Shown here: one piece after another, positions 961 through 34,248 of the stretch
Layout of the letters: every line of letters starts with the position of its first letter
How positions within the stretch are numbered: the first letter of the stretch is position 1
NCBI GenBank assembly: GCA_900318215.1
Contig: ONJV01000001.1
Coordinates: 1 to 35,903, forward strand
Direction: 5' to 3'
DNA: 35,903 nt
Source of the DNA: an uncultured Veillonellaceae bacterium
Lineage (GTDB): Bacteria; Bacillota; Negativicutes; Selenomonadales; Selenomonadaceae
Translations under genes and position numbers: made by a program
The notes under the pieces: generated by a model
What the model was told of the DNA's origin: nothing
The model's input: only the letters and a program-made list of their open reading frames with translations
The model's database searches: none

Positions 961-1053
961 AAAAGAACAACCAATTTGTGAAAGTGTCAGCTTTTTTCTG
1001 TGATTTGCGCAGGTCTGTCTCGGGATGGCGTTGCGCACGGAGGAGGGACCAAC

Positions 1054-2154
1054 GTGGAAAAACGGGAAAGTCTTTGGGAGCGGTATCTGCGGAAGGGCAT
1101 GAGCCGCAGGAGCTTCCTCAAGGGGTGCGTTGCGCTCACGACGATGATGGGTCTGAGCACTGAGAGGTTCCAGGAGGTCGTCGAGGCGGCCGAGACGCAG
1201 CCGCTGCCAGTCGTCGTCTGGATTCACGGCCACGAGTGCACGGGCTGCGATGAGTCGTTCATCCGCTCGGGCGCACCGCTCGCATCGGATGTCGTGCTCA
1301 GCCAGATCGATCTCGAGTATGACCATCTGCTCAGAGCGGCTTCGGGCGAGCCGTTCGAGGCGCATCTCAAAGAGGTCATGGAGAAGTACAAGGGGAACTA
1401 CATCCTGGCCGTCGAGGGCGCTGTCTCGACGAAGGACAACGGCGTCTACTGCATGTCGGGCGGCCGTCCGTTCACGCGGATGCTGCAGGAGGCAGCGGCC
1501 GGTGCAAAGGCGATCATCGCCTACGGCACCTGCGCTGTCGCGGGCGGCATCCAGAGCGCGAAGCCGAACCCGACGGGTTCTTCGGGCATCGGCCCGTTCG
1601 TCGGCAACACGCCGGTCGTCAATGTGCCGGGCTGCCCGCCGATTCCGGAGGTCATGACGGGCGTCATCATGCATGTCGCTCTGTTCGGCAACCTGCCGCC
1701 GCTCGATGGCGAGGGCCGTCCGAAGCAGTTCTACGGCAACCGCATCCACGACACGTGCTACCGCCGTCCGTTCTTTGATGCGGGCATGTTCGCCGAGAAC
1801 TTTGACGACGCGGGTGCGAAAGCGGGCTGGTGCCTCTACAAGCTCGGCTGCCGCGGGCCGGAGACGTACAACAGCTGCGGCAACCTGCGCTGGTTCCAGG
1901 GCATGAGCTATCCGATTCAGTCCGGCGCGCCGTGCATCGGCTGCAGCAATTCGAATTTCTGGGACGATACACCGTTCACGAAGCGCCTGCCTGGCTATGG
2001 CAAGCTCGGAAATGCCGACAAGATCGGCCTCGGCGTCGGCGCGCTCGCGGCGGCCGGCGTCATCGCGCATGCGGCTGGCTCGATCATGCAGAAGAACAAG
2101 CGTGACGAGGCGGAAGCCAAGGCGGCCGCCAAAGAAGAAGAAGACAAGTTTTGA
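1054..2154 (+). CDS. hyaA: [NiFe] hydrogenase small subunit (Tat-exported, membrane-anchored)
   Basis: Small electron-transfer subunit of a group 1 membrane-bound uptake [NiFe] hydrogenase; it carries FeS clusters from the active site towards cytochrome b. I chose GTG 1054 because GGAGGAGGG (1039-1047) lies 6 bases upstream and places the twin-arginine motif SRRSFLKG at residues 17-24. The frame runs back to 1000 but the extra residues are unlike a Tat leader. The product is 366 aa. HGHECTGCDESF (C62, C65) is the proximal-cluster motif; GTCAVAGG, VPGCPP, HDTC, GCRGPETYNSC and APCIGCSNSNFW follow. A C-terminal hydrophobic helix (about 325-345) and a charged tail anchor it. The two extra cysteines of oxygen-tolerant enzymes are absent (ECTGC, and GG after GTCAVA), so a standard oxygen-sensitive proximal cluster is predicted. 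Confidence 0.95.
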   Translation: MEKRESLWERYLRKGMSRRSFLKGCVALTTMMGLSTERFQEVVEAAETQPLPVVVWIHGHECTGCDESFIRSGAPLASDVVLSQIDLEYDHLLRAASGEPFEAHLKEVMEKYKGNYILAVEGAVSTKDNGVYCMSGGRPFTRMLQEAAAGAKAIIAYGTCAVAGGIQSAKPNPTGSSGIGPFVGNTPVVNVPGCPPIPEVMTGVIMHVALFGNLPPLDGEGRPKQFYGNRIHDTCYRRPFFDAGMFAENFDDAGAKAGWCLYKLGCRGPETYNSCGNLRWFQGMSYPIQSGAPCIGCSNSNFWDDTPFTKRLPGYGKLGNADKIGLGVGALAAAGVIAHAAGSIMQKNKRDEAEAKAAAKEEEDKF

Positions 2155-2173: not shown

Positions 2174-4114
2174 ATGAAACATGTAGTAGTCGATCCGATC
2201 ACGAGAATCGAAGGCCATCTGCGCGTCGAGGTCAATGTGGACGAGGGTTCGGGCAAAGTCACGGATGCCCTGTCGTCCGGCACGGCCTGGCGCGGCCTCG
2301 AGCTCGTCATGCACAACCGCGACCCGCGTGATGCGTGGGCCTATATCCAGCGCATCTGCGGCGTCTGCACGACGGCGCATGCGCTCGCTTCGGTGCGCGC
2401 CGTCGAGGATGCGCTCCAGATCCGTATTCCGAAAAACGCGAACTACATCCGCAACATCATGGCGGCGACGCTGACGGTGCAGGATCATATCGTCCATTTC
2501 TATCATCTGCATGCGCTCGACTGGGTCAGCCCGGTCGAGGCGCTCGCGGCCGATCCGGTCGCGACGGCGAACCTGCAGGCCACGGTGCTCAATGCCTACC
2601 GTCTGCCGTTCCGCGCGCCCGGCACGAGCGTGACGGAGGCGTACGACCATGCATTCCCGGCCGCGACGCCGCAGTATTTCGCAGAAATCCAGGGCAAGGT
2701 CAAGGCCATCGTCGAGAGCGGCCAGCTCGGCATCTTCTCGGCGAACTGGTGGGATCATCCGGACTACAAGCTGCTGCCGCCGGAAGTCCATCTCATGGCG
2801 GTCGCGCATTATCTTGAAATGCTCGACAAGCAGCGCGAACTCGTGACGCCGCATGTCATCTTCGGCGGCAAGAACCCGCATCCGCACTATGTCGTCGGCG
2901 GCATGCCGTGCTCCATCTCCATGACGGACGGCAACGCGCCGGTGAACTCCGCGCGCCTCGGCATCGTCGACCGCGCCATCAATCTCGGCCGCACGCTCGT
3001 CAACAATTACTATATCCCCGACCTCATCGCCATCGGCTCCGCGTACGTCAAGGCGGGCCGTGTCGACGGCGGCGGCCTCGCAGGCACGCGTGTGCTCGCG
3101 TATGGCTCGTATCCAATCGAGCCGCCTTCGGGCACGTCGGACGGCGATTTCTTCAACAACCTCCTGATCCGCTGCAACGGTGTCGTCGAGAACTTCAAGG
3201 CCGGTGCGGCGAATGCGAAGTTCACGGAGATCGCGGCCGAGGACATCAACGATCCGAAGTGCTTCACCGAGGGCGTCGTCCATTCGTGGTACGACTACCC
3301 CGAGGGCAAGCAGGGCGCCGACCTCCATCCGTGGGACGGCGTCACGGACGCGCACTACACGGGTCCGAAAGAGGGCTCGGCGACGGAGTGGAAAGCGCTG
3401 AACGAACAGGGCAAGTACAGCTGGCTCAAGACGCCGAAATGGCGCGGCAAGGTCTGCGAAGTCGGCCCGCTCGCGCGCTATATCATCATCTATACGAAGG
3501 CTGCGCAGGGCAAGCTCGGCGAGCCGACGTGGGCAGAAAAGATGATGCTCGACCAGATGGCCGCGGTTTCGAAAGTCCTGAACCTCCCCGCCGAGACCTG
3601 GCTCCCGACGATGGTCGGCCGCACGGCGGCACGCGCCCTCGACTGCCAGCTCAATGCAGAAATCAACAAGTTCTTCTTCGACAAGCTCATCGCAAATCTC
3701 AAGACGGGCGACACCGAAGTCGTCAACAACGAGCATTGGAATACGGACACCTGGCCGCAGAAAGCCAAGGGCGTCGGCCTCTACGAGGCGCCGCGCGGCG
3801 GCCTCGCACACTGGGTCACGATCAAGGACGACAAGGTGGACAACTACCAGTGCGTCGTCCCGACGACGTGGAACGCCTGCCCGCGTGACGACGAAGCCGG
3901 CCACGGCGCTTACGAGCTCGCCATGATGGACACGCATGTTGCCATCCCTGACAAGCCGCTCGAAATCGTCAAGGTCGTGCGCTCCTTCGACCCCTGCATG
4001 GCATGCGCGACGCACATGTACAACGCCGAGGGCGAGGAAATCAGCGTCGTGACGGCCGACCCGTGCTCCGGCACGCATGTCGAGACGAAGACACCGGCCG
4101 AGAAGAGGGAGTGA
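2174..4114 (+). CDS. hyaB: [NiFe] hydrogenase large subunit
   Basis: Catalytic subunit binding the NiFe(CN)2CO centre that splits H2. The 646-aa product has the expected signatures: ITRIEGHLRVEV near the N-terminus, RICGVCTTAH (R60, C62, C65, H69) supplying two nickel ligands, and DPCMACATH (C608, C611, H614) near the C-terminus supplying the other two. The maturation protease is expected to cut after H614. The tail that would be removed is 32 residues, longer than the usual 15 or so, and contains one more cysteine. A GGAGCAGGTGG Shine-Dalgarno stretch precedes ATG 2174, 19 bases after hyaA. There is no signal peptide: this subunit normally rides out with the Tat-tagged small subunit. Confidence 0.96.
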   Translation: MKHVVVDPITRIEGHLRVEVNVDEGSGKVTDALSSGTAWRGLELVMHNRDPRDAWAYIQRICGVCTTAHALASVRAVEDALQIRIPKNANYIRNIMAATLTVQDHIVHFYHLHALDWVSPVEALAADPVATANLQATVLNAYRLPFRAPGTSVTEAYDHAFPAATPQYFAEIQGKVKAIVESGQLGIFSANWWDHPDYKLLPPEVHLMAVAHYLEMLDKQRELVTPHVIFGGKNPHPHYVVGGMPCSISMTDGNAPVNSARLGIVDRAINLGRTLVNNYYIPDLIAIGSAYVKAGRVDGGGLAGTRVLAYGSYPIEPPSGTSDGDFFNNLLIRCNGVVENFKAGAANAKFTEIAAEDINDPKCFTEGVVHSWYDYPEGKQGADLHPWDGVTDAHYTGPKEGSATEWKALNEQGKYSWLKTPKWRGKVCEVGPLARYIIIYTKAAQGKLGEPTWAEKMMLDQMAAVSKVLNLPAETWLPTMVGRTAARALDCQLNAEINKFFFDKLIANLKTGDTEVVNNEHWNTDTWPQKAKGVGLYEAPRGGLAHWVTIKDDKVDNYQCVVPTTWNACPRDDEAGHGAYELAMMDTHVAIPDKPLEIVKVVRSFDPCMACATHMYNAEGEEISVVTADPCSGTHVETKTPAEKRE

Positions 4115-4118
4115 TCGC

Positions 4119-4838
4119 ATGGCACAGATTCATCGCATGAAGGAAGTCCAGCGCAAGGAATTCTACCTCTTCAGCCCGTTCCTGCGCATCTTCCACTGGA
4201 TCATGGTCGTGATGATCCTCGTCCTGTTCGGCACAGGCATCATCATCGCGACGCCGCTGCAGTCGATGAACCTCGAGCCGGCATACTCCACGACGTATGT
4301 CGACCTCGTGCGCGACATCCACTTCGTCGCAGCGTTCGTCTTCTGCGCATCGTTCGTGCTGCGCATCTACGGTTTCATCATCAACCGTGGCGACCGCCTG
4401 TTCCCGCGGTTCTGGAAAGGCTATTTCTACGCGCAGACGCTCGACGTCATCAAGCACTACATGCTCGTCCAGCCGAACCACGCATCGTTCCTCAGAAACC
4501 CCTTGGCGCGCATGTCGTATCTCATGCTCTACGGCCTCGTCGCCATCGAGATCTGCACGGGATTTGCCATGTACTACATGACGGAGCCCGCGACGTACAT
4601 CGCGCAGGCATTCGCTTGGGTCAACGTCGTCTGCGGCAACGAGATGGTCACGCACCTCGTCCATCACTACGCAGCCTGGGCGATCATCCTGTTCGCCATC
4701 GGCCATCTCTACATGGTCATCCGCTCGGAGTTCATGGAAGGCGAGTCCGAAGTCTCGAGCATGTTCTCGGGCAGCAAGTTCCTCGTCCACTATCCGCAGG
4801 ACGCGAGCGAAGTCGACCCGAGCGCAGAGAAGTCGTAA
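4119..4838 (+). CDS. hyaC: Ni/Fe-hydrogenase b-type cytochrome subunit
   Basis: Di-haem membrane cytochrome that anchors the hydrogenase and passes electrons to quinone. ATG 4119 is 4 bases after the hyaB stop, with AGAGGGAG upstream; the frame runs back to 4077 inside hyaB but the overlap has no family similarity. The 239-aa product has about four membrane helices. Histidines suited to haem binding lie in FHWIMVVMI, DIHFVAAF and VHHYAAWAIILFAIGHLYMV. Size and order after hyaAB match HyaC/HydC. The quinone is probably menaquinone, given the mqn genes further along. Confidence 0.93.
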   Translation: MAQIHRMKEVQRKEFYLFSPFLRIFHWIMVVMILVLFGTGIIIATPLQSMNLEPAYSTTYVDLVRDIHFVAAFVFCASFVLRIYGFIINRGDRLFPRFWKGYFYAQTLDVIKHYMLVQPNHASFLRNPLARMSYLMLYGLVAIEICTGFAMYYMTEPATYIAQAFAWVNVVCGNEMVTHLVHHYAAWAIILFAIGHLYMVIRSEFMEGESEVSSMFSGSKFLVHYPQDASEVDPSAEKS

Positions 4839-4893: not shown

Positions 4894-4944
4894 CAGCCTC
4901 CCTCTAGAGGGAGGGGAACCGCGAAGCGGTGGTGGGAGTAGTAG
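4894..4944 (+). repeat. Interspersed palindromic repeat unit, solo, forward
   Basis: One unit of a family seen about 15 times here. It has a first hairpin CCTCCCTC-tag-GAGGGAGG, then a second hairpin ACCGCGAAGCGGT, then GGTGGGAGTAGTAG. It lies between hyaC and the small CxxCGC protein gene. A related hairpin (cctccacctttggggggagg) lies just upstream at about 4849-4868. Confidence 0.8.
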
Positions 4945-4983
4945 GAAGCTACGTACTGACAATTCCAAAGGAGTAACTATAGA

Positions 4984-5226
4984 ATGTGCAAAGAATGTGG
5001 CTGCGGTGAAACGAACGGCAACACGCGCCTCCAGTTCACCGTCGAAGGCTATACCGAAGAACTCGCGAAAGATGTCGAGAAGGCCCTGTTCGGCCTCCCC
5101 GGCGTCCTCTTCGTCCACATCCACGCCCACGACGGCGAAACGACCGTCGACTACGCGCCGAAAAAGACGAAGCTCATGGACATCCTCGGAGTGTTCCAGA
5201 AGCGCGGGCTCGAAGCGCAGCTGTAA
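4984..5226 (+). CDS. Small CxxCGC protein with HMA-like fold, probable nickel-handling partner of HypB
   Basis: 80-aa protein starting MCKECGCGETNGN. That start is the nickel-binding N-terminus usually found on HypB (MCxxCGC). The rest, LQFTVEGYTEELAKDVEKAL and later GVLFVHIHAHDGETTVDY, resembles a small ferredoxin-like heavy-metal-associated (HMA) domain: two strand-helix-strand halves, with a His-rich HIHAHD segment. AAAGGAG (4967-4973) lies 10 bases before ATG 4984. It sits between the structural genes and hypA-hypB, and the HypB of this operon lacks the motif. I infer that it stores or hands nickel to HypA/HypB. The fold assignment is by pattern and not certain. Confidence 0.7.
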   Translation: MCKECGCGETNGNTRLQFTVEGYTEELAKDVEKALFGLPGVLFVHIHAHDGETTVDYAPKKTKLMDILGVFQKRGLEAQL

Positions 5227-5261
5227 AACCTGATCGGAAGAAACGGAGCCCGACAATCATG

Positions 5262-5307
5262 CAGCCCCCCTCTAGAGGGGGGACGGGCCGCGTGAGCGGC
5301 GGGGGGA
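5262..5307 (+). repeat. Interspersed palindromic repeat unit, solo, forward
   Basis: Same family as 4894-4944. First hairpin CCCCCCTC-tag-GAGGGGGG, second hairpin GCCGCGTGAGCGGC, then a G run. This variant has GGGCCGCGTGAGCGGC in place of GACCGCGAAGCGGT. It lies upstream of the hypA terminator-like hairpin. Confidence 0.8.
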
Positions 5308-5327
5308 TCAAATAGCATGAAAGAAAC

Positions 5328-5370
5328 TTCCGCGGGTGCGAATCTGAATATCGCACCCGCGGAACTTTTT
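5328..5370 (+). terminator. Intrinsic terminator, possibly an attenuator, just before hypA
   Basis: A perfect 14-bp GC-rich stem, ttccgcgggtgcga (5328-5341) with tcgcacccgcggaa (5351-5364), is followed by CTTTTTG. The hypA Shine-Dalgarno site starts 4 bases later, so the hairpin falls inside the hydrogenase block. No promoter is obvious between it and hypA. It would lower hyp expression relative to hya or be conditionally read through. Confidence 0.75.
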
Positions 5371-5387
5371 GCAGGAGAATTCATCCT

Positions 5388-5729
5388 ATGCACGAAATGT
5401 CAATCGCAGAGGGCATTCTCGACATCGCCCTCGACTACGCGAAGCAGAATGACGCCAAGGTCGTCCACGAGGTCGGCCTGATCCTTGGAGAGATGGCGGG
5501 CGTCGAGATGGAGTCGCTCGATTTCAGCTGGCGCCTCATCACGAAGGACACGATCGCCGAGGGCGCGAAGCTCACGGTGCGCCATACGCCGCTCGTCGGG
5601 CGCTGCTCGAAGTGCGGCAAGGAATTCCACATCGAACACTACAATTTCTGGTGCCCCGAATGTAAGGACGGCGTCCTCAAGACCATTTCGGGGCGCGAGC
5701 TCCAAGTCGAATATCTGGAGGTGGACTGA
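5388..5729 (+). CDS. hypA: Hydrogenase maturation nickel metallochaperone HypA
   Basis: HypA delivers nickel to the hydrogenase large subunit together with HypB. The 113-aa product begins MHEMSIAEG, with the conserved MHE nickel site (H2, E3). It carries a zinc site CSKCGKEFHIEH...CPEC (two CxxC pairs about 15 residues apart). Length is typical. GCAGGAG lies 9 bases before ATG 5388. It is followed after 5 bases by hypB, and the two are surely co-translated. Confidence 0.95.
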   Translation: MHEMSIAEGILDIALDYAKQNDAKVVHEVGLILGEMAGVEMESLDFSWRLITKDTIAEGAKLTVRHTPLVGRCSKCGKEFHIEHYNFWCPECKDGVLKTISGRELQVEYLEVD

Positions 5730-5734
5730 CCCAC

Positions 5735-6391
5735 ATGGAAATCAAGGTCATCAAGAACATCCTGGGCGAGAACGACCGCTTTGCGGCCGAGAACATGGCC
5801 CTTTTCAAAGACAAGAACGTCTTCGTCGTCAACTTCATGGGCTCGCCAGGCGCGGGCAAGACGTCTGTGCTCGAGCGCACGATGGAAAAGCTCGGCGGCG
5901 AGCTCCGCATGGCCGTCATCGAAGGCGACCTCTTCACGAGCAAGGACGCGGACCGCATCGATAAGTACGGCGTGCCTGTCATCCAGATCAACACGGCGGG
6001 CGGCTGCCACCTCGACGCGAACATGGTGCAGAAGACGGCGAAGGATATCGACCTCGATGCGCTCGACCTTCTCGTCATCGAGAACGTCGGCAACCTCGTC
6101 TGTCCAGCCGAATTCGCGCTCGGCGAAGACGCCCGCGCCGTCGTGCTCTCCGTCACCGAGGGCGACGACAAGCCGATGAAGTACCCGCTGATGTTCAAGG
6201 AAAGCGAGATTGCCCTCATCAACAAGATTGACCTCGCGCCATACTGCAACTTCGACCGCAAGAGTGCGAAAGAGGACATCGAAATGCTCCATCCGGGCAT
6301 CGTTGTGCAGGAAGTCTCGTGCACGACAGGCGAGGGCATCGACGCCTGGTGCGACTGGCTCAAGGCGGGCGTCGCGAAAAAGAAAAAATGA
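5735..6391 (+). CDS. hypB: Hydrogenase maturation GTPase HypB (lacking the N-terminal CxxCGC motif)
   Basis: SIMIBI-class GTPase that drives nickel insertion. The 218-aa product has a P-loop GSPGAGKT (36-43), a switch region VIEGD, the metal-site segment GGCHLDA with adjacent Cys-His, LLVIENVGNLVCP, and the guanine-specificity motif NKIDL. GGAGGTGG (5717-5724) lies 10 bases before ATG 5735. It starts directly with MEIKVIKNILGEN, so the high-affinity N-terminal nickel motif known from E. coli HypB is missing. An equivalent motif is on the separate 80-aa protein at 4984. Confidence 0.95.
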   Translation: MEIKVIKNILGENDRFAAENMALFKDKNVFVVNFMGSPGAGKTSVLERTMEKLGGELRMAVIEGDLFTSKDADRIDKYGVPVIQINTAGGCHLDANMVQKTAKDIDLDALDLLVIENVGNLVCPAEFALGEDARAVVLSVTEGDDKPMKYPLMFKESEIALINKIDLAPYCNFDRKSAKEDIEMLHPGIVVQEVSCTTGEGIDAWCDWLKAGVAKKKK

Positions 6392-6457: not shown

Positions 6458-6505
6458 ACTCCCACCACCGCTTCGCGGTCCCCCTCCCTCAGAGAGGGAG
6501 GCTGG
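6458..6505 (-). repeat. Interspersed palindromic repeat unit, solo, reverse
   Basis: Reverse-oriented unit reading ACTCCCACCACCGCTTCGCGG then CCTCCCTC-aga-GAGGGAGG on the plus strand. It fills most of the 146-bp gap between hypB and hyaD. A small hairpin, acggattcttttgccgt, lies upstream at 6434-6450. Confidence 0.8.
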
Positions 6506-6537
6506 AGTTTTAATTCCATGATATTAGGAGAAAAGTG

Positions 6538-7137
6538 ATGGATGATGTTTTGTTTCAATCCGATGTTACCATCTTGGGAATCGGCAACGTGATCCTGCGC
6601 GACGAGGGCTTCGGCGTGCGCGTCGCGGAGTATCTTGACGCGCATTACGATTTCCCCGAAAACGTCCAGATTGTCGACGGCGGTACGCTCGGCATCGAGC
6701 TCACGCAGTTCGTCACGGGCACGAAGAAGCTGCTTGTCATCGACAGCATCAATGGTCACGCCGCGCCCGGCACGCGCTTCGCCATCCGCGATGACGACGT
6801 CCTCGCCCACTTTCAGGACAAGATTTCCGCGCACGAAGTCGGCATCCAGGACGTCCTTGCCCTGCTCGAAGTCACGGGCCACAAAATCCCCACCGTCACC
6901 GTCCTCGGCGCCCAGCCCTACAACCTCGAAGCCGGCGTCGAGCTGTCAGAAGAAATGAAGAAGCTCGTGCCAGAAGTCGCGGAAGAAGCGCTCACGGAAT
7001 TGCGGAAATGGGGAATCAAGGCGACGGCGAAAAAAGTTCCTGATATGCTTGATGATACTTGTGTAGCAGAGGCATTCGCTTATCCTCAGCCCCCCTCTCA
7101 GAGGGGGGACGGGCCGCGTGAGCGGCGGGGGGAGTAG
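6538..7137 (+). CDS. hyaD: Hydrogenase maturation protease (HyaD/HybD family)
   Basis: Nickel-dependent endopeptidase that removes the C-terminal tail of HyaB after metal insertion. The 199-aa product shows GIGNVILRDEGFGVRVAEYL, DGGTLGIEL, IDSINGH and AHEVGIQDVL, covering the Glu, Asp and His that sense bound nickel in HybD. TAGGAG (6525-6530) favours ATG 6538; an in-frame GTG at 6535 is possible. The last 17 or so residues (PQPPSQRGDGPRERRGE) are encoded by the interspersed repeat that begins at 7087, which also supplies the stop codon. That tail is unlikely to be functional. Confidence 0.92.
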   Translation: MDDVLFQSDVTILGIGNVILRDEGFGVRVAEYLDAHYDFPENVQIVDGGTLGIELTQFVTGTKKLLVIDSINGHAAPGTRFAIRDDDVLAHFQDKISAHEVGIQDVLALLEVTGHKIPTVTVLGAQPYNLEAGVELSEEMKKLVPEVAEEALTELRKWGIKATAKKVPDMLDDTCVAEAFAYPQPPSQRGDGPRERRGE

Positions 7138-7359: not shown

Positions 7360-7599
7360 ATGTGTCTTGCAGTCCCTGCCAAGATTCTGTCCATCCAGGA
7401 CGCCCTCGCGAAGGTCGAGCTTTCGGGCGTGACGAAGGATGTCTCGCTCATGCTGCTCCCCGAGGCGAAAGTCGGCGACTACGTGCTCGTGCATGCGGGC
7501 TTTGCCATGCAGATCGTCGATGAAAAGGAAGCCGAGGAGACGTATGCGCTGCTCGACGAGATGAACGGCGCGCCACGCACCGTGGAGGCGCTTTCATGA
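7360..7599 (+). CDS. hypC: Hydrogenase maturation chaperone HypC/HybG
   Basis: Small chaperone that binds the large-subunit precursor and, with HypD, carries the Fe(CN)2CO unit. The 79-aa product starts MCLAVPAKI, with the essential Cys2, followed by a beta-barrel-like sequence (VELSGVTKDVSLMLLPEAKVGDYVLVHAGFAMQ). GGAGGT (about 7345-7350) lies 9 bases before ATG 7360. Its stop overlaps the hypD start (ATGA), so the two partners are translationally coupled. Confidence 0.96.
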   Translation: MCLAVPAKILSIQDALAKVELSGVTKDVSLMLLPEAKVGDYVLVHAGFAMQIVDEKEAEETYALLDEMNGAPRTVEALS

Positions 7600-8741
7600 C
7601 GGCCGCCTCGCAGGCAGCGGCCGCAGACGGCAAGCTCACGCGAAAGGAAGAACGCGAGGCCGCGCAGGCGCTCGTCGCCGAGATTCGGCGCCTCGCGGTG
7701 GAAATCGGGCGGCCGCTCCGCTATATGGAGGTCTGCGGTACGCACACCGTCTCGATTTTCCGCGCGGGCATCCGCCAGCTGCTGCCTGAGAACGTCGCGC
7801 TCGTCAGCGGCCCGGGCTGTCCCGTCTGCGTCACGGCCGACGACTACATGGACAAGGCCATCGCCTATGCCCATCGCGATGACGTCATCCTCGCGACGTT
7901 CGGCGACATGCTGAAAGTGCCGGGCTCCCAGTCGAGCCTCGCCGAGGCGAAGGCCGAGGGCGCCGACATCCGCATCGTCTATTCGCCGCTCGACACGCTG
8001 GCCATCGCACGCGAAAACCCCGCCAAGAAAGTCATCTTCCTCGCCGTCGGCTTCGAGACGACGGCCCCGACGGCCGCCGCTCTCGTACTCGCGGCCGAGC
8101 AGGCGGGGCTGCAGAACGTCTACCTGCTCTCGTCGCAGAAGCTCGTGCCGCCAGCGCTGCGGGCGTTGCTGACCGACCCGGAAGTCCGCGTCGACGGCTT
8201 CCTGTTGCCGGGGCATGTCTCTGTCGTGACGGGGCTCGACGTCTTCCAGTTCGTCGCGGACGAATTTCATACGCCCGGCGTCGTGACCGGCTTCACGCCC
8301 GTGGCCATCCTGCGCTCGCTCGTGCGCCTCCTGCAGCAGACGGCGAAAGGCGAGGCACGCATCGAGAATGAATACGAGAGCGTCGTGCAGACGGCGGGCA
8401 GCCCCGCCGCACGACGCACACTCGCCGAGGTCTACGAGACCGTCGACGCCCCGTGGCGCGGCATCGGCGTCATCCCGCAGTCGGGCCTGCGCATGAAAGC
8501 GGCGCACGCCGCCCACGACATCGAGCGCCTGCTGCCGATGGACATCCCTGTGGGCGACAACCACCCCGGCTGCCGCTGCGGCGAGGTCCTGCGCGGCATC
8601 GTCACGCCGCGCGAATGTCCGCTCTTCGGCAAAGTCTGCATCCCCACCCACGCCATCGGCCCCTGCATGGTCTCCGTCGAAGGCGTCTGCGCCGCATGGT
8701 ACAAATATGGGCAGGGGAGATTTGAGTTTGGAAAATCATAA
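7596..8741 (+). CDS. hypD: Hydrogenase maturation scaffold protein HypD
   Basis: FeS scaffold on which the Fe(CN)2CO group is assembled with HypC. The 381-aa product has MEVCGTHT (C47, iron ligand), SGPGCPVCV (C75, C78), GFETTAPT, DNHPGCRCGEVLRG, and the C-terminal cluster region CPLFGKVC...AIGPCMVSVEGVCAAWYKY. Length is usual. It overlaps hypC by 4 bases. Confidence 0.97.
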   Translation: MTAASQAAAADGKLTRKEEREAAQALVAEIRRLAVEIGRPLRYMEVCGTHTVSIFRAGIRQLLPENVALVSGPGCPVCVTADDYMDKAIAYAHRDDVILATFGDMLKVPGSQSSLAEAKAEGADIRIVYSPLDTLAIARENPAKKVIFLAVGFETTAPTAAALVLAAEQAGLQNVYLLSSQKLVPPALRALLTDPEVRVDGFLLPGHVSVVTGLDVFQFVADEFHTPGVVTGFTPVAILRSLVRLLQQTAKGEARIENEYESVVQTAGSPAARRTLAEVYETVDAPWRGIGVIPQSGLRMKAAHAAHDIERLLPMDIPVGDNHPGCRCGEVLRGIVTPRECPLFGKVCIPTHAIGPCMVSVEGVCAAWYKYGQGRFEFGKS

Positions 8742-8983: not shown

Positions 8984-9042
8984 TCTGTATATGTCACGTT
9001 CCTTGAAAGATGAGAATGTGTATGAAAAAGGAAGGTCTATCT

Positions 9043-10053
9043 TTGGCAAAAGAAAATCTGATTACCCTCGCCCACGGCGCGGGCGGCAAAATGAGTGCCG
9101 AGCTCATGCATGACGTCATCGGCCCGGCGTTTTCGAATCCCCTCCTCGACGAGCTCCACGACGGCGCGAAGCTTTCTACTTCTGGCCGCCTCGCGTTCAC
9201 GACGGATTCCTACGTCGTGCGGCCGCTGTTTTTTGCGGGCGGCAACATCGGCAAGCTCGCCGTCTGCGGCACGGTCAATGACCTTGCGATGACGGGCGCT
9301 GTGCCGCGCTATCTCTCGTGCGGCCTCATTCTCGAAGAGGGCTTCCCCGTGGATGATCTGCGGCGCATCACCCAAACCATGCACGACATGGCGGCCGAGG
9401 CGGGCGTCCAGATCGTCACGGGCGACACGAAGGTCGTCGAGCGCGGCAAGGCCGACGGTATCTTCATCAACACGGCCGGTGTCGGCGAGCTCATCGACGG
9501 CGTCGACATTTCGCCGAAAAACGTCCGTCCGGGCATGAAAGTCCTGCTCTCGGGCTACCTCGGCGACCATGCGGCCGCCATTCTCGCGGGCCGTCACGGC
9601 CTCGAACTGCCGCCTGACATCACGACGGACTGTGCGCCGCTCGCGAGCCTCACGCAGGCAGTGCTCCAGGCTGCGCCGCACACGGCCGTCCTGCGCGATC
9701 CGACGCGCGGCGGCGTTGCGGCCGTGCTCAATGAAATTGCCGAGGCGTCGGGCGTCGGCATCCTCATTGACGAAGACGCCGTCCCCGTGCGCGATGCTGT
9801 GCGCGGCGTCTGCGACATCCTCGGCTTTGACCCGCTCTACCTCGCGAACGAGGGCAAATGCATCGCTTTCGTGCCCGAGGACGAAGCGGACGCGGCTCTC
9901 GCCGCGATGAAGTCCGACCCGCATGGCAAGGACGCCGTCATTCTCGGCGAGACGACAGACAAAGCCCCTGGCCAGGTCGGCCTGCGCACGACGATCGGCG
10001 GTATCCGCATCGTCGACATGCCCGTCGGCAACCTCGTGCCGCGCATCTGCTGA
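9043..10053 (+). CDS. hypE: Hydrogenase maturation protein HypE (carbamoyl dehydratase)
   Basis: HypE dehydrates the carbamoyl group made by HypF on its C-terminal cysteine to give the cyanide ligands of the NiFe site. Features are LAHGAGGKMS near the start, a PurM-like ATP-binding fold (FTTDSYVVRP, NDLAMTGA, VTGDTKVV, DPTRGGVA, EGKCIAFV), and the invariant C-terminal PRIC. I favour TTG 9043: AAGGAAGG (9029-9036) lies 6 bases upstream and the N-terminus then matches the family (336 aa). In-frame ATGs at 9010, 9016 and 9022 have poor ribosome sites but cannot be excluded. The carbamoyl donor enzyme HypF is not in this window. Confidence 0.95.
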   Translation: MAKENLITLAHGAGGKMSAELMHDVIGPAFSNPLLDELHDGAKLSTSGRLAFTTDSYVVRPLFFAGGNIGKLAVCGTVNDLAMTGAVPRYLSCGLILEEGFPVDDLRRITQTMHDMAAEAGVQIVTGDTKVVERGKADGIFINTAGVGELIDGVDISPKNVRPGMKVLLSGYLGDHAAAILAGRHGLELPPDITTDCAPLASLTQAVLQAAPHTAVLRDPTRGGVAAVLNEIAEASGVGILIDEDAVPVRDAVRGVCDILGFDPLYLANEGKCIAFVPEDEADAALAAMKSDPHGKDAVILGETTDKAPGQVGLRTTIGGIRIVDMPVGNLVPRIC

Positions 10054-10763: not shown

Positions 10764-12287
10764 ATGGACGAGGCAGAGAGCTATCTCTTCGGGCTGTTCG
10801 AGAAAGTCCGCTGTCTGCGCGAGACGGCGCGCGGCGAGGTCTGGCTCGGCGCCGACCGCGCGGGACGGCCCGTCATCTACAAGCGCATTCGCCGCACGGG
10901 CCTGCCGCTCGCGGAGCTCAAAGCACTCTCGCATCCGCTCTGGCCGGAAATCTACGCTTTTTTCGAAGACGCGGAGGCGGGCGAGACGCACATCCTCGAA
11001 GAATGCGTGCAGGGCGAGCCGATGACGCGCCGCCTCGAAACGGAACGCTATCTCACGGAGCGCGAGGCGCGCGCGCTGCTGCTCGCGCTCGCCGACGGCC
11101 TCGCTACGCTCCACGCGGCCGGCATCCTCCACCGCGACATCAAGCCCGGCAACCTCATCGAGCAGCCGGGCGGCACCGTGCGCCTCATCGATTTCGACGC
11201 CGCGCGCATGATGCATGGCGGCGCGCCCGACACGACGTACCTCGGCACGCGCGGCTACGCGCCGCCGGAGCAGTACGGCTACGGCGCGACCGACGCGCGC
11301 AGCGACATCTACGCGCTCGGCGTGACCGTCCGCGAGCTCCTCGGCCCGGCGTACCATGGCAGCCTCGCGCGCGTGCTCGATCGCGCGACGGAGGTCGACC
11401 CGAAGCGCCGCTACCCCTCGGTCGCCGCGCTCGTGCGCGACGTGCGCTACGGCCGCCGCCTCCGCATGGCGAAAGGTTTCGCAATCGCGTTGACCGTCTT
11501 CTTGTTCGCCGCCGCCTACCTCTTTTACCTCGCGCAGACGCACCCGGGCAAAATCGAAGAGCTCGAGACGACGCCGGTCGAAGAACTCGTGCGCCATCCT
11601 GAAGAGCTCGCGCCCGACACGCGCCGCGAGGACGTGCGCGAAACGGAACGCAAGAAAGAGGGCATGCCGCCGGGCGGGACGACCGTCACGGAGATCGGCG
11701 GCGGAGCGCCATCGGACGGCGCAAAGCCGCAGGCAGCAGGTAGCGCTGCCTCCGATGATGCGAACAACGCGGCAGGGAACAGCGGTGGCGCAAGCGAAGC
11801 ACCGCCGCGCGAAGAAATCCGCGCGCACTATTATTTTAGCGATGACTGCTGGAATGCATGGACGGATGCCTTCGACTATCCTGTGAACAACGCGAGCAAC
11901 ACCGTCTACATCCCGGCGGGCGTCTGGCAGAATTGGGCAGGTGACGACACGGCGCGCACGTTCCCCGATGACGCGTACTGGCACGTCCGCGTCCACGTCA
12001 CGAACACGACGCAGGAGACATTTGCCGCGCCCGTTCTCCACATGGAATACGACGGCGGCACGCAGACAGTGGTGCAAAATTACGAAGCCCCGCCGCTCGC
12101 ACCCGGCGGCAGCATCGACTTCGACCTCCCGCTCGCAGGTCTCGCCATCGCCAATCCCGGCCACGAAGGCTACATCGGCCACGACATGACGCTCGAACTG
12201 CGCGGCATCGACCACGAGATCTACGGCGCGCGCTCCGCCGTGAGCTTCGTGCCGCGCACGATGCCGGCGAATTTCGGAAACTGGTGA
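10764..12287 (+). CDS. Membrane-anchored Ser/Thr protein kinase with extracytoplasmic sensor-like domain (copy 1)
   Basis: 507-aa Hanks-type kinase. Residues 1-225 hold the kinase: VIYK (K40), HRDIKPGN (D125, K127, N130), LIDFD (D143), APPEQYGY and DARSDIYALG. The DFG motif reads DFD and the glycine loop is reduced to ARGEVWLG; the catalytic Lys and both Asp residues are present, so activity is plausible. One membrane helix (about 236-256) leads to a low-complexity linker and a C-terminal domain (about 352-507) with many aromatic residues that I do not recognise. It is not PASTA. GGGAGGTGG precedes ATG 10764. It is paralogous to the gene at 16604; the first 86 residues differ at one position only. 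It probably senses an envelope signal. Confidence 0.85.
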   Translation: MDEAESYLFGLFEKVRCLRETARGEVWLGADRAGRPVIYKRIRRTGLPLAELKALSHPLWPEIYAFFEDAEAGETHILEECVQGEPMTRRLETERYLTEREARALLLALADGLATLHAAGILHRDIKPGNLIEQPGGTVRLIDFDAARMMHGGAPDTTYLGTRGYAPPEQYGYGATDARSDIYALGVTVRELLGPAYHGSLARVLDRATEVDPKRRYPSVAALVRDVRYGRRLRMAKGFAIALTVFLFAAAYLFYLAQTHPGKIEELETTPVEELVRHPEELAPDTRREDVRETERKKEGMPPGGTTVTEIGGGAPSDGAKPQAAGSAASDDANNAAGNSGGASEAPPREEIRAHYYFSDDCWNAWTDAFDYPVNNASNTVYIPAGVWQNWAGDDTARTFPDDAYWHVRVHVTNTTQETFAAPVLHMEYDGGTQTVVQNYEAPPLAPGGSIDFDLPLAGLAIANPGHEGYIGHDMTLELRGIDHEIYGARSAVSFVPRTMPANFGNW

Positions 12288-16603: not shown

Positions 16604-18121
16604 ATGGACGAGGCAGAAAGCTATCTCTTCGGGCTGTTCGAGAAAGTCCGCTGCCTGCGCGAGACGGCGCGCGGCGAGGTCTGGCTCGGCGCTGACCGCG
16701 CGGGACGGCCCGTCATCTACAAGCGCATCCGCCGCACGGGCCTGCCGCTCGCCGAACTCAAGGCGCTCTCGCATCCGCTCTGGCCGGAAATCTACGCCTT
16801 TTTCGAAGACGCAGCGGCGGGCGAGACGCACATCCTCGAGGAATGTGTGCAGGGCGAGCCGCTTTCACGGCGCATCGAGACGGAGCACTATCTCACGGAG
16901 CGCGAGGCGCGGCGCTATCTGCTCGCGCTCGCCGACGGCCTCGCCGTGCTCCATGCGCACCGCATCCTCCACCGCGACATCAAGCCCGAAAACCTCATCG
17001 AAGAGCGTGACGGCACGATCCGCCTCATTGATTTTGATGCGGCGCGCGTCATGGGGGCGGAGGGCGAGGAAAAGGCCGCCGACACCGTTTACCTCGGCAC
17101 GCGCGGCTACGCGCCGCCCGAGCAGTACGGCTACGGCGCGACCGACGCCAGGAGCGACATCTACGCGCTCGGCATGACAATGCAGGAGCTCCTCGGCCCC
17201 GATTATCACGGCAACCTCGCGCGCATCTGCCGCCGCGCGTCCGAAGTCGATCCGAAGCGCCGCTACCAGAGCATCCGCGCGCTCGTGCGCGATGTGCGCT
17301 ATGGCCGCCGCATCCGTTTCGCCAAAGGCATGGCCGCACTTGCCATTCTCGCCGTGCTGGCTGTTGCTGCCTACCTTTTCTACCTCGCACAGGCAAAGCC
17401 AGAAAAGCTCGAAGAGCTCGAAACGACGCCAGTGGAAGAGCTCGTGCGCCATCCCGAAGAGCTCAAGCCGAACACGAGACGCGATGACGTGAAGAAAAAG
17501 GAGCAGGAGGCGCAGCCGCCGTCAGGCGGAGCGACGGTCATCCAGACGGGCGGCGGCGAAGAAGCCAGCGGCGCGAAAGCGGCAGAAACGGCGGCGGACG
17601 ACGCGAAGGACAAGGCCGCGGAGCCTGCCGCAGAAGAAGAGAAGCCGCGTGAAGAAATCCGCGTCCACTATTACATGAACGGAACGTGTTTCAATGGTTG
17701 GACGGACGCGTATGACTATCCCATCAACAATGCGACCGGCATCGACTACATCCCGCCAAGCACCTGGCAGACCTGGGCGGGCGATGACGATGCGCGCATC
17801 TTTCCTGACGGCGCGGCATGGCACATCCGCGTCAATGTCCAGAACACGACGCAGAACACGTATCCTGCGCCCGTCCTTCACATGGAGTACAACGATGGCG
17901 CCGAGACGACCGTCCGCGACTACGAAGCGCCCGCCCTCGTGCCGGGCGGCAGCATCGACTTCGACGTCCCGCTCGCGGGCCTGCGCATCGTGAATCCGGG
18001 CGAGGAAGGCTACCACGCGCGGAGGATGCAGCTCGAAGTGCGCGGCATCGACCACCAGCTTTTTGGCGGGCAGATGCCCATCGACTTCATCCCGAAAGCG
18101 CGGCCGAATTTCGGCTGGTAA
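16604..18121 (+). CDS. Membrane-anchored Ser/Thr protein kinase with extracytoplasmic sensor-like domain (copy 2)
   Basis: 505-aa paralog of the kinase at 10764. The same order is seen: kinase domain with K40, HRDIKPEN, LIDFD and APPEQYGY; one membrane helix (about 245-265); a charged linker; and an aromatic-rich C-terminal domain (about 350-505) with the NNAT and WQTWAGDDDAR segments. DFG again reads DFD. The 5' 250 bases are about 95% identical to copy 1, while the linker and membrane segment have drifted, so the similarity is patchy. It stands after hicAB rather than next to an HTH gene. A role in envelope sensing is inference. Confidence 0.85.
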   Translation: MDEAESYLFGLFEKVRCLRETARGEVWLGADRAGRPVIYKRIRRTGLPLAELKALSHPLWPEIYAFFEDAAAGETHILEECVQGEPLSRRIETEHYLTEREARRYLLALADGLAVLHAHRILHRDIKPENLIEERDGTIRLIDFDAARVMGAEGEEKAADTVYLGTRGYAPPEQYGYGATDARSDIYALGMTMQELLGPDYHGNLARICRRASEVDPKRRYQSIRALVRDVRYGRRIRFAKGMAALAILAVLAVAAYLFYLAQAKPEKLEELETTPVEELVRHPEELKPNTRRDDVKKKEQEAQPPSGGATVIQTGGGEEASGAKAAETAADDAKDKAAEPAAEEEKPREEIRVHYYMNGTCFNGWTDAYDYPINNATGIDYIPPSTWQTWAGDDDARIFPDGAAWHIRVNVQNTTQNTYPAPVLHMEYNDGAETTVRDYEAPALVPGGSIDFDVPLAGLRIVNPGEEGYHARRMQLEVRGIDHQLFGGQMPIDFIPKARPNFGW

Positions 18122-23699: not shown

Positions 23700-24806
23700 G
23701 TGATTGATAATCAGCAACAAATCGCAGCCGCGCGCAAAAAGGCCGTCGAGGGCGGCCGTCTTTCCATTGACGACGCGCTGGCGCTTTATGAGGACAACGA
23801 CCTCCTGTTCCTTGCCGACTGTGCGCGGCGGGCGAAGGAGCGGGCGAGCGGGCGGTCGGTCTATTATACGGTGAACCGCCATATCAATCTGACGAACATC
23901 TGCTCGTCGAACTGCCCGCTCTGCGCGTTCCAGGTCGAAGAGGGCGATGCGCGCGGATATGTGCTCGAGACGGACGACATCGCGCGGATTCTTGACGATG
24001 CGAAAAAGGTCAAGAATCTCTCGGAAATCCATATCGTTTCGGCGCTCCATCCGTCGAAACCGTTTTCTTATTACGTCGATGTCGTGAAGCAGGTCAAGGC
24101 CGCGCTGCCGGACGCCGACTGCAAGGCGTTCACGCCCGTCGAGGTCGTGAATTTCTCGAAGATGACGGGCAAATCCGTCCGCGAAGTGCTTGAAATCCTC
24201 AAGGATGCGGGCCTCGACTCGCTGCCGGGCGGCGGCGCGGAAATCCTTTCGGACCGCGTGCGGCAGATCATCTGCCCGAAGAAGGCGACGGCGGCGGAGT
24301 GGGAGACGACCATGCGCACGGCGCACAGCCTCGGCATCCGCACAAATGCCTCGATGATGTACGGCCACATCGAGACCGTGCGCGAGCGTTTCGAGCACCT
24401 CGCGACGCTCCGCGCCATCCAGGATGATACAAGGGGCTTTCAGGCATTTATGCTGTTCCCGTTCCACCCCGCGCATACGAAGCTCGGCGAGGAATATCAT
24501 CTCACGCGCGTCGGCGCCTGGGAAGACCTCAAGATGATGGCGCTCTCGCGCCTGTTCCTCGACAACATCGCGCATGTCAAGGCGTTCTGGATCATGATGA
24601 CGCTGCCGATTGCCGAGCTCGCGCTGCAGTTCGGCGCGGATGACCTCGACGGCACGATCGGCGAGGAAAAAATCATCCACGCGGCCGGTGCCAAGACGCA
24701 GACGGGCATCACGAAAGCAAAGCTCCAGAGCATCATCCGCGAGGCGGGCTACGACCCCGTCGAGCGCGATACGTTCTACCACGCGATCAGCAGCCTCCCT
24801 CATTGA
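23700..24806 (+). CDS. mqnE: Radical SAM aminofutalosine synthase (MqnE-like, copy 2)
   Basis: 368-aa radical SAM protein similar to the preceding gene: VNRHINLTNI, CSSNCPLC (C68, C72, C75), IHIVSALHPSKPFSYYVDVV, LPGGGAEILSDRVRQI and CPKKATAAEWE. I start at GTG 23700 behind CAGGTGAC; the frame extends to 23508 but that part lies in repeat sequence with no family similarity. The last few codons (SSLPH) and the TGA stop fall in the next interspersed repeat (from 24791). Both copies keep all three cluster cysteines, so both are probably active. Division of labour is unknown. Confidence 0.85.
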   Translation: MIDNQQQIAAARKKAVEGGRLSIDDALALYEDNDLLFLADCARRAKERASGRSVYYTVNRHINLTNICSSNCPLCAFQVEEGDARGYVLETDDIARILDDAKKVKNLSEIHIVSALHPSKPFSYYVDVVKQVKAALPDADCKAFTPVEVVNFSKMTGKSVREVLEILKDAGLDSLPGGGAEILSDRVRQIICPKKATAAEWETTMRTAHSLGIRTNASMMYGHIETVRERFEHLATLRAIQDDTRGFQAFMLFPFHPAHTKLGEEYHLTRVGAWEDLKMMALSRLFLDNIAHVKAFWIMMTLPIAELALQFGADDLDGTIGEEKIIHAAGAKTQTGITKAKLQSIIREAGYDPVERDTFYHAISSLPH

Positions 24807-24971
24807 GGGAGGGGGACCGCGAAGCGGTGGTGGGAGTAGTAAGGTGCTGGAGACTAGCAAGAATACATGTGTTGCTAAAGTCTTTTAGCAACGTTTTGCA
24901 TACTTGTCCGGCTTCAGTATCCAACTACTCCCCCAGCCTCACTTCGTTCGGCAGCCCCCTCTAGAGGGGGC
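24791..24971. repeat. Composite repeat: forward and reverse units in inverted order
   Basis: Forward unit 24791-24846 (GAGGGAGG, ACCGCGAAGCGGT, gtagtaaggtgctgg) and reverse unit 24925-24971. The core contains gttgctaaa-gtct-tttagcaac plus GTTTT, a terminator-like hairpin at about 24872-24899. The left unit supplies the stop of mqnE copy 2. Confidence 0.8.
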
Positions 24972-29806: not shown

Positions 29807-29861
29807 CAGCCTCCCTCTCCGAGGGAGGGGGACCGCGAAGCGGTGGTGGGTGTGTCGGAGA
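29807..29861 (+). repeat. Interspersed palindromic repeat unit, solo, forward
   Basis: CCTCCCTC-tcc-GAGGGAGG, ACCGCGAAGCGGT, then GGTGGGTGTGTCGGAG. It lies 24 bases after apbE. No reverse partner is seen nearby. Confidence 0.78.
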
Positions 29862-34048: not shown

Positions 34049-34248
34049 GGCCTCCCTCTCCGAGGGAGGGGGACCGCGAAGCGGTGGTGGGAGTGGCGAA
34101 GGTATGGTGCACCAATGTCATCGATTGTGCAGTCGAAGAGATTTCCTGAGTTCTACCTTCGACTGCACAATCGAACTTTACTTCACGTCGTACCTTCGCC
34201 ACACCTCCAGTCGCCTTCAGCGCCAGCCCCCTCAGGGAGGGGGCCTTA
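34049..34248. repeat. Composite repeat: forward and reverse units in inverted order
   Basis: Forward unit 34049-34105 (inner arm gtggcgaaggta) and reverse unit 34190-34248 (taccttcgccacacc). The core holds a second inverted pair, tgtgcagtcgaag against cttcgactgcaca (about 34125-34168). It fills the 268 bp between the restriction pseudogene and the secreted-protein gene. Confidence 0.8.

Follow-up and report, generated by a model that had tools for sequence, protein, structure and literature searches.

A small gene within a hydrogenase operon

The window analysed here, a stretch of 35,903 nucleotides from an uncultured bacterium of the Selenomonadaceae, harbours a [NiFe]-hydrogenase operon in which a small gene sits between hyaC and hypA (Table 1). 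The open reading frame at 4984–5226 encodes a protein that begins, at its extreme N-terminus, with MCKECGCGE, as the initial annotation had read it, and the HMA-like domain with HIHAHD described there is borne out by a predicted HMA fold in which HIHAHD occupies residues 45–50. The gene is real and its motif is no chance match, since a Shine-Dalgarno sequence precedes it, purifying selection acts on it (dN/dS 0.04–0.33 among same-family relatives, a range limited to comparisons with more than a handful of changes) and this gene contains the only match in the 2.7-Mb genome to the DNA pattern of an N-terminal MCxxCGC. GGAG-type sites similar to AAAGGAG also precede the ATG in most of the 12 relatives compared. 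Within the family to which the protein belongs, here called family A, the presumed ligands are nearly invariant: among 121 unique proteins, Cys2, Cys5 and Cys7 are conserved in 121, 121 and 120, and H45, H47 and H49 in 119, 118 and 113, respectively.

REP-like palindromes (CCTCCCTC..GAGGGAGG with ACCGCGAAGCGGTGG) lie between genes of the window, several of them within the hydrogenase operon, at 4897–4932, 6465–6501, 24794–24830, 29810–29846 and 34051–34087, with a variant at 5280 and 7106. Two protein-kinase-like genes at 10764–12287 and 16604–18121 (507 and 505 aa) have near-identical starts.

Table 1. Coordinates of the hydrogenase genes, the small gene and its sequence elements in the window
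Feature	Position	Strand	Basis
hyaA, [NiFe]-hydrogenase small subunit	1000..2154	+	TIGR00391
hyaB, [NiFe]-hydrogenase large subunit	2174..4114	+	profile match
hyaC, hydrogenase cytochrome b; likely start 4104 or later	4077..4838	+	TIGR02125
Shine-Dalgarno AAAGGAG of the small gene	4967..4973	+	sequence; ten bases ahead of ATG
Small gene (family A), 80 aa: MCxxCGC N-terminal tag and HMA-fold domain	4984..5226	+	sequence, relatives, AlphaFold model
MCKECGC tag: Cys2, Cys5, Cys7 and N-terminal amine, predicted Ni(II) site	4984..5004	+	conservation, HypB likeness
HMA (ferredoxin-like) domain, residues 14–80; GYTEELAK replaces the canonical CxxC loop	5023..5223	+	AlphaFold model, structural matches, profile vs PDB
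HIHAHDG hairpin, residues 45–51, possible second metal site	5116..5136	+	conservation
hypA	5388..5729	+	PF01155, TIGR00100
hypB without CxxCGC prefix; G-domain Cys-His site GGCHLDA present	5735..6391	+	TIGR00073 E 4e-80
hyaD/hycI maturation protease	6535..7137	+	profile match
hypC	7360..7599	+	profile match
hypD	7596..8741	+	named from place and sequence; seed of relative searches
hypE	9010..10053	+	named from place and sequence; seed of relative searches

A HypB-type tag on an HMA body, beside a tagless HypB

In the AlphaFold model, residues 14–80 adopt the HMA fold with a pLDDT of about 94, while the tag is disordered, nearly all of residues 1–8 having a pLDDT <50. Among solved structures, the model most resembles CopZ and CsoZ (Z about 13, rmsd 1.1–1.2 over 66–68 residues), with CopZ as the best match (Z 13.1, rmsd 1.1). 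The predicted structure is thus that of the HMA domain PF00403; the Pfam profile on the window protein alone gave E 0.0018 and 19.1 bits, under the gathering score of 24.8, and the CopZ copper chaperone model NF033795 gave 18.4 bits, under its curated cut-off of 91 bits. The CxxC metal loop that HMA domains carry between strand 1 and helix 1 is absent from the window protein (GYTEELAK) and from family A as defined. It is found in a sister group of 11 proteins, group B, which combine the same MCxxCGC tag with a CopZ-type CxxC, have no HxHxH, and in no case have nickel or hydrogenase neighbours. Group B loci come from other Negativicutes families (L097, L099, L109, L110, L112, L116, L120, L124, L126 and L128), and L099 carries two such genes in tandem.

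The tag itself matches that of HypB, the hydrogenase-assembly GTPase, as it occurs elsewhere. HypB opens with MCTTCGCGEG in Escherichia coli MG1655 (read from the genome), MCTVCGC in Rhizobium tropici, MCVTCGC in Trichormus, MCTTCGC in Paraburkholderia and MCGTCGC in Parabacteroides, and five of five yardstick HypBs from other phyla carry the tag in a form and at a position identical to those of family A. Family A proteins of one genus (L084, L085) start with MCATCGCGNHDHHHDHD, the form in L084, or MCATCGCGNHEHQHDHE, to which the HypB start of Parabacteroides, MCGTCGCGEHHHHHDHTH, is strikingly similar. From these comparisons, the match extends to sequence, to position and, in that genus, to a His-rich stretch after the tag. 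Sharing of a tag seven residues long may reflect common descent or convergence. The HypB_prefix_1 model (NF053667) gave 13.5 bits for the window protein, below its curated cut-off of 30 bits, and weak matches for 14 of 18 relatives (best E 0.0011). Of the features of the high-affinity HypB site, the small protein has MCxxCGC at the extreme N-terminus, with a presumably free amine; attachment to a HypB GTPase domain is lacking, the gene standing alone at 80 aa, and no fusion of a family A protein to HypB was seen. In E. coli HypB, the ligands of Ni(II) at this site are the N-terminal amine and three cysteines (Cys2, Cys5 and Cys7), and the Kd is sub-picomolar (PMC7055735). One ITC study runs against this high affinity: Cu bound to the synthetic tag peptides CTTCGCG and MCTTCGCGEG, whereas no isotherm was obtained with Ni (PMC6848105).

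The HypB encoded downstream does start without the motif, as had been claimed, hypA lying between the two genes; it opens MEIKVIKN and keeps the CHLDA Cys-His site of the G-domain. A sample of 100 unique HypBs, drawn almost entirely from Negativicutes, contains no CxxC in the frame before the P-loop; the CHLDA metal site is present in 94 of them. No HypB_prefix_1 match exceeded the cut-off in 199 Bacillota; because the model detected only E. coli among the controls, the N-termini of 29 HypBs from other Bacillota were read directly, and none had the motif at the start of HypB, although the L295 frame has a CxxC well upstream of its likely start. The HypB of Negativicutes families that have no family A gene is also without the tag. 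The expectation that genomes with the small gene have a HypB lacking the motif therefore held: no MCxxCGC-HypB was found in the lineage among the 100 HypBs, a count taken from the HypBs themselves and not from the motif-pattern matches listed across 300 genomes, and the frequent co-occurrence with full-length CxxCGC HypBs, which the initial annotation had counted against its proposal, did not appear. Of the alternative nickel delivery design by a split that it envisaged, the tag on a separate protein and the tagless HypB stand, but no loss from HypB matches a gain of the small gene; since HypB is tagless throughout the lineage, including genomes without the small gene, 'split' serves as a description and is overstated as an event.

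Distribution and gene neighbourhoods

Family A is widespread in Negativicutes. At E 0.01, matches to the small protein, group B included, occur in 150 of 300 Negativicutes genomes, and hypB in 198. In the 109 genomes of Selenomonadaceae, both genes are present in 93 and neither in 12, with the small gene alone in 1 and hypB alone in 3 (Fisher's test, p about 2e-12, the table being descriptive only as the genomes share ancestry). Most of the 12 genomes with neither belong to one genus, and in the five genomes of that genus searched, the hydrogenase large subunit was matched only in part. In two genomes, G259 and G074, the small gene and a full-length hydrogenase large subunit are present and hypB was not found; G074 (99% complete) has larC, a full-length [NiFe] large subunit and two family A genes (L122, L123), and a TIGR00073 HypB was not found in it. 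Outside the class, no family A member was found at a comparable score in the 348 Bacillota genomes sampled, the profile dropping from at least 119 bits to at most 47 bits, where it meets ordinary HMA proteins and P-type ATPases; exceptions among these matches are L249 and L250, which have MCxxCGC-type starts. No family A match was found in plasmids.

The neighbours of the 121 unique family A proteins are hydrogenase or hyp genes within 4 kb in 63 cases, NikA-, NikD- or NikE-like genes in 9, and larC or a nickel-pincer isomerase gene in 3. The remaining 46 have no such neighbour, an upper bound given the ends of draft contigs; most of these loci belong to one rumen genus, where the gene often stands by itself, with crcB and a hydrolase gene nearby. 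The small gene lies directly between hyaC and hypA in 46 of the 121, after hyaC in 59 and before hypA in 47. Other copies stand beside hypF (L090), after hypE (L105, L118), after an Opp/Nik-type ABC set (L107), by larC (L114) or by a group-22 nickel-pincer isomerase gene (L140, L115), and in G194 and G288 the gene is with hyaABC while hypAB is on another contig. One copy, L122, is found downstream of an [FeFe]-hydrogenase and a cytochrome b. Two rumen genomes have the small gene tightly inserted between two ATPase genes, one NikD-like and one NikE-like, with 6–24 bases separating it from the preceding gene and 4 from the following one; a NikA-like binding protein is encoded upstream (its best NCBIfam model, Opp5A_nikA, scores below cut-off). 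A NikA-like binding protein is encoded together with a class I methyltransferase at L160:3966–7994 and L205:6294–8579, a pairing that might point to metallophore-type nickel uptake. By eye, no copper export genes were recognised around the loci inspected.

Three relatives (G239, G279 and G284) have a hydrogenase and HypB and no intact small gene, which indicates that the gene is helpful at most and not essential for having a hydrogenase. It was not found in the draft assemblies G279 and G284. In G239, where the hydrogenase, hypA and hypB are present, only MCKECGCGHRERTIHIHSR... remains at its place, in frame with HypA, which retains its own Shine-Dalgarno sequence and MHE start. At this site (L070:7272–7717), the MCKECGC tag is kept, the HMA domain is gone and the frame continues into HypA; it may be what a natural deletion left behind, or else a fusion of the tag to HypA. 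Likewise, HypB does not need the small gene, since many Negativicutes have a prefix-less HypB and no family A gene.

A putative nickel chaperone and its known counterparts

The likeness of the tag to the nickel site of E. coli HypB, the hydrogenase, nik and lar neighbours, the tagless HypB and the co-occurrence of the two genes lead us to favour, with moderate confidence and from sequence evidence, a metallochaperone that stands free in the cytosol, binds nickel and serves the maturation of [NiFe]-hydrogenase. The disordered M-C-x-x-C-G-C tail would bind a single Ni(II) with high affinity and planar geometry, its ligands being three Cys thiolates and the N-terminal amine freed by removal of the Met, in a site resembling that of E. 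coli HypB. The HMA body, having lost its own Cys pair, would serve for docking, and the HxHxH hairpin would offer a second site or a surface for passing nickel on. Having picked up nickel from the cytosol or close to the importer, the protein would hand it on to HypA/HypB, where HypB retains just the weaker G-domain site; the metal, its affinity, the partners and the direction of transfer are those we infer. Counted against this reading are the 46 loci that have no nickel neighbour, the presence of the same tag on CxxC-bearing CopZ-like proteins together with the copper binding of HypB-tag peptides (PMC6848105), the many Negativicutes that combine a prefix-less HypB with no family A gene, the three hydrogenase genomes that have no intact small gene, and the copy near an [FeFe]-hydrogenase. 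A more elaborate form can be put forward only tentatively: a dedicated Negativicutes relay in which a HypB-type tag on a redesigned CopZ-like body would load at the NikDE importer and deliver to HypA/HypB, and perhaps to nickel-pincer enzymes, replacing the on-board HypB site.

A nickel buffer or store, or a gatekeeper of NikDE uptake, with no specific hand-over to HypA/HypB, would accommodate the isolated copies that have no hyp neighbour, those inside the nik operon and the His-rich tail of one genus, and it has a parallel in the Helicobacter pylori metallochaperone SlyD, which contacts the nickel permease NiuD (PMC7840056); it is rather unlikely, however, as the hydrogenase operon is by far the commonest place, with the hyaC–hypA position in particular recurring, and one tag site on 80 aa makes a small store. 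We consider it improbable that the protein is a hydrogenase-specific assembly factor that acts on the large subunit or on cytochrome b (it might, for instance, shield the active site while this is open) and in which the metal tag has a minor role: adjacency to hyaC is more constant than adjacency to hypA, in two genomes the gene stays with hyaABC where hypAB is elsewhere and one copy follows an [FeFe]-hydrogenase and cytochrome b, yet copies also occur in nik, lar and hypF/hypE neighbourhoods and the Cys and His ligands are near-invariant. Equally doubtful is a CopZ-type chaperone for copper or another thiophilic metal lying beside hydrogenase genes by chance, which would fit the predicted fold, the CxxC-bearing relatives with the same tag and the copper-binding peptides (PMC6848105), but not the loss of the canonical CxxC, the conserved HxHxH or the recurring nickel neighbours.

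Selenomonas-type bacteria carry the seven-residue HypB-type nickel tag on a separate protein that probably takes nickel towards the enzyme. The source of nickel for HypB and the purpose of its N-terminal site are stated as open questions in a review (PMC7055735), and a separate gene for a HypB-type site means that the site can be deleted, mutated or moved with the GTPase untouched, in a natural system where a few relatives manage without the tag gene and others have it linked to nickel import. If the nickel chaperone reading is true, the HMA-fold chaperones, whose best-known cargo is copper, would also include a carrier of nickel, in bacteria that are common rumen inhabitants. Prefixes on HypB and chaperones of the HMA type are each already known; what appears new is their combination in one small protein, of which we found no description in the literature searched, a scope that left most subscription journals outside.

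Among known systems, SlyD, HspA, Hpn and similar proteins are small, free nickel-handling proteins that feed HypA/HypB or import, a role only proposed for family A, and their fold and sequence are unrelated to those of the family A protein. The fold and size are instead those of the HMA metallochaperones CopZ, CsoZ and Atx1, from which family A differs in having no CxxC metal loop and in its MCxxCGC tail, conserved HxHxH hairpin and nickel-related neighbours. The closest counterpart of the tail is the N-terminal nickel site of E. coli-type HypB (NCBIfam HypB_prefix_1/2), where MCxxCGC likewise forms the first seven residues in a setting next to hypA/hypB, and the His-rich HypB type of rhizobia and Bacteroidota has its equivalent in the one family A genus with a His-rich stretch after the tag. 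Unlike the HypB tag, that of family A stands on a separate protein, with an HMA fold in place of the HypB GTPase and an adjoining HypB that has no tag, and the HMA domain with HxHxH is an addition of family A, absent from HypB prefixes.
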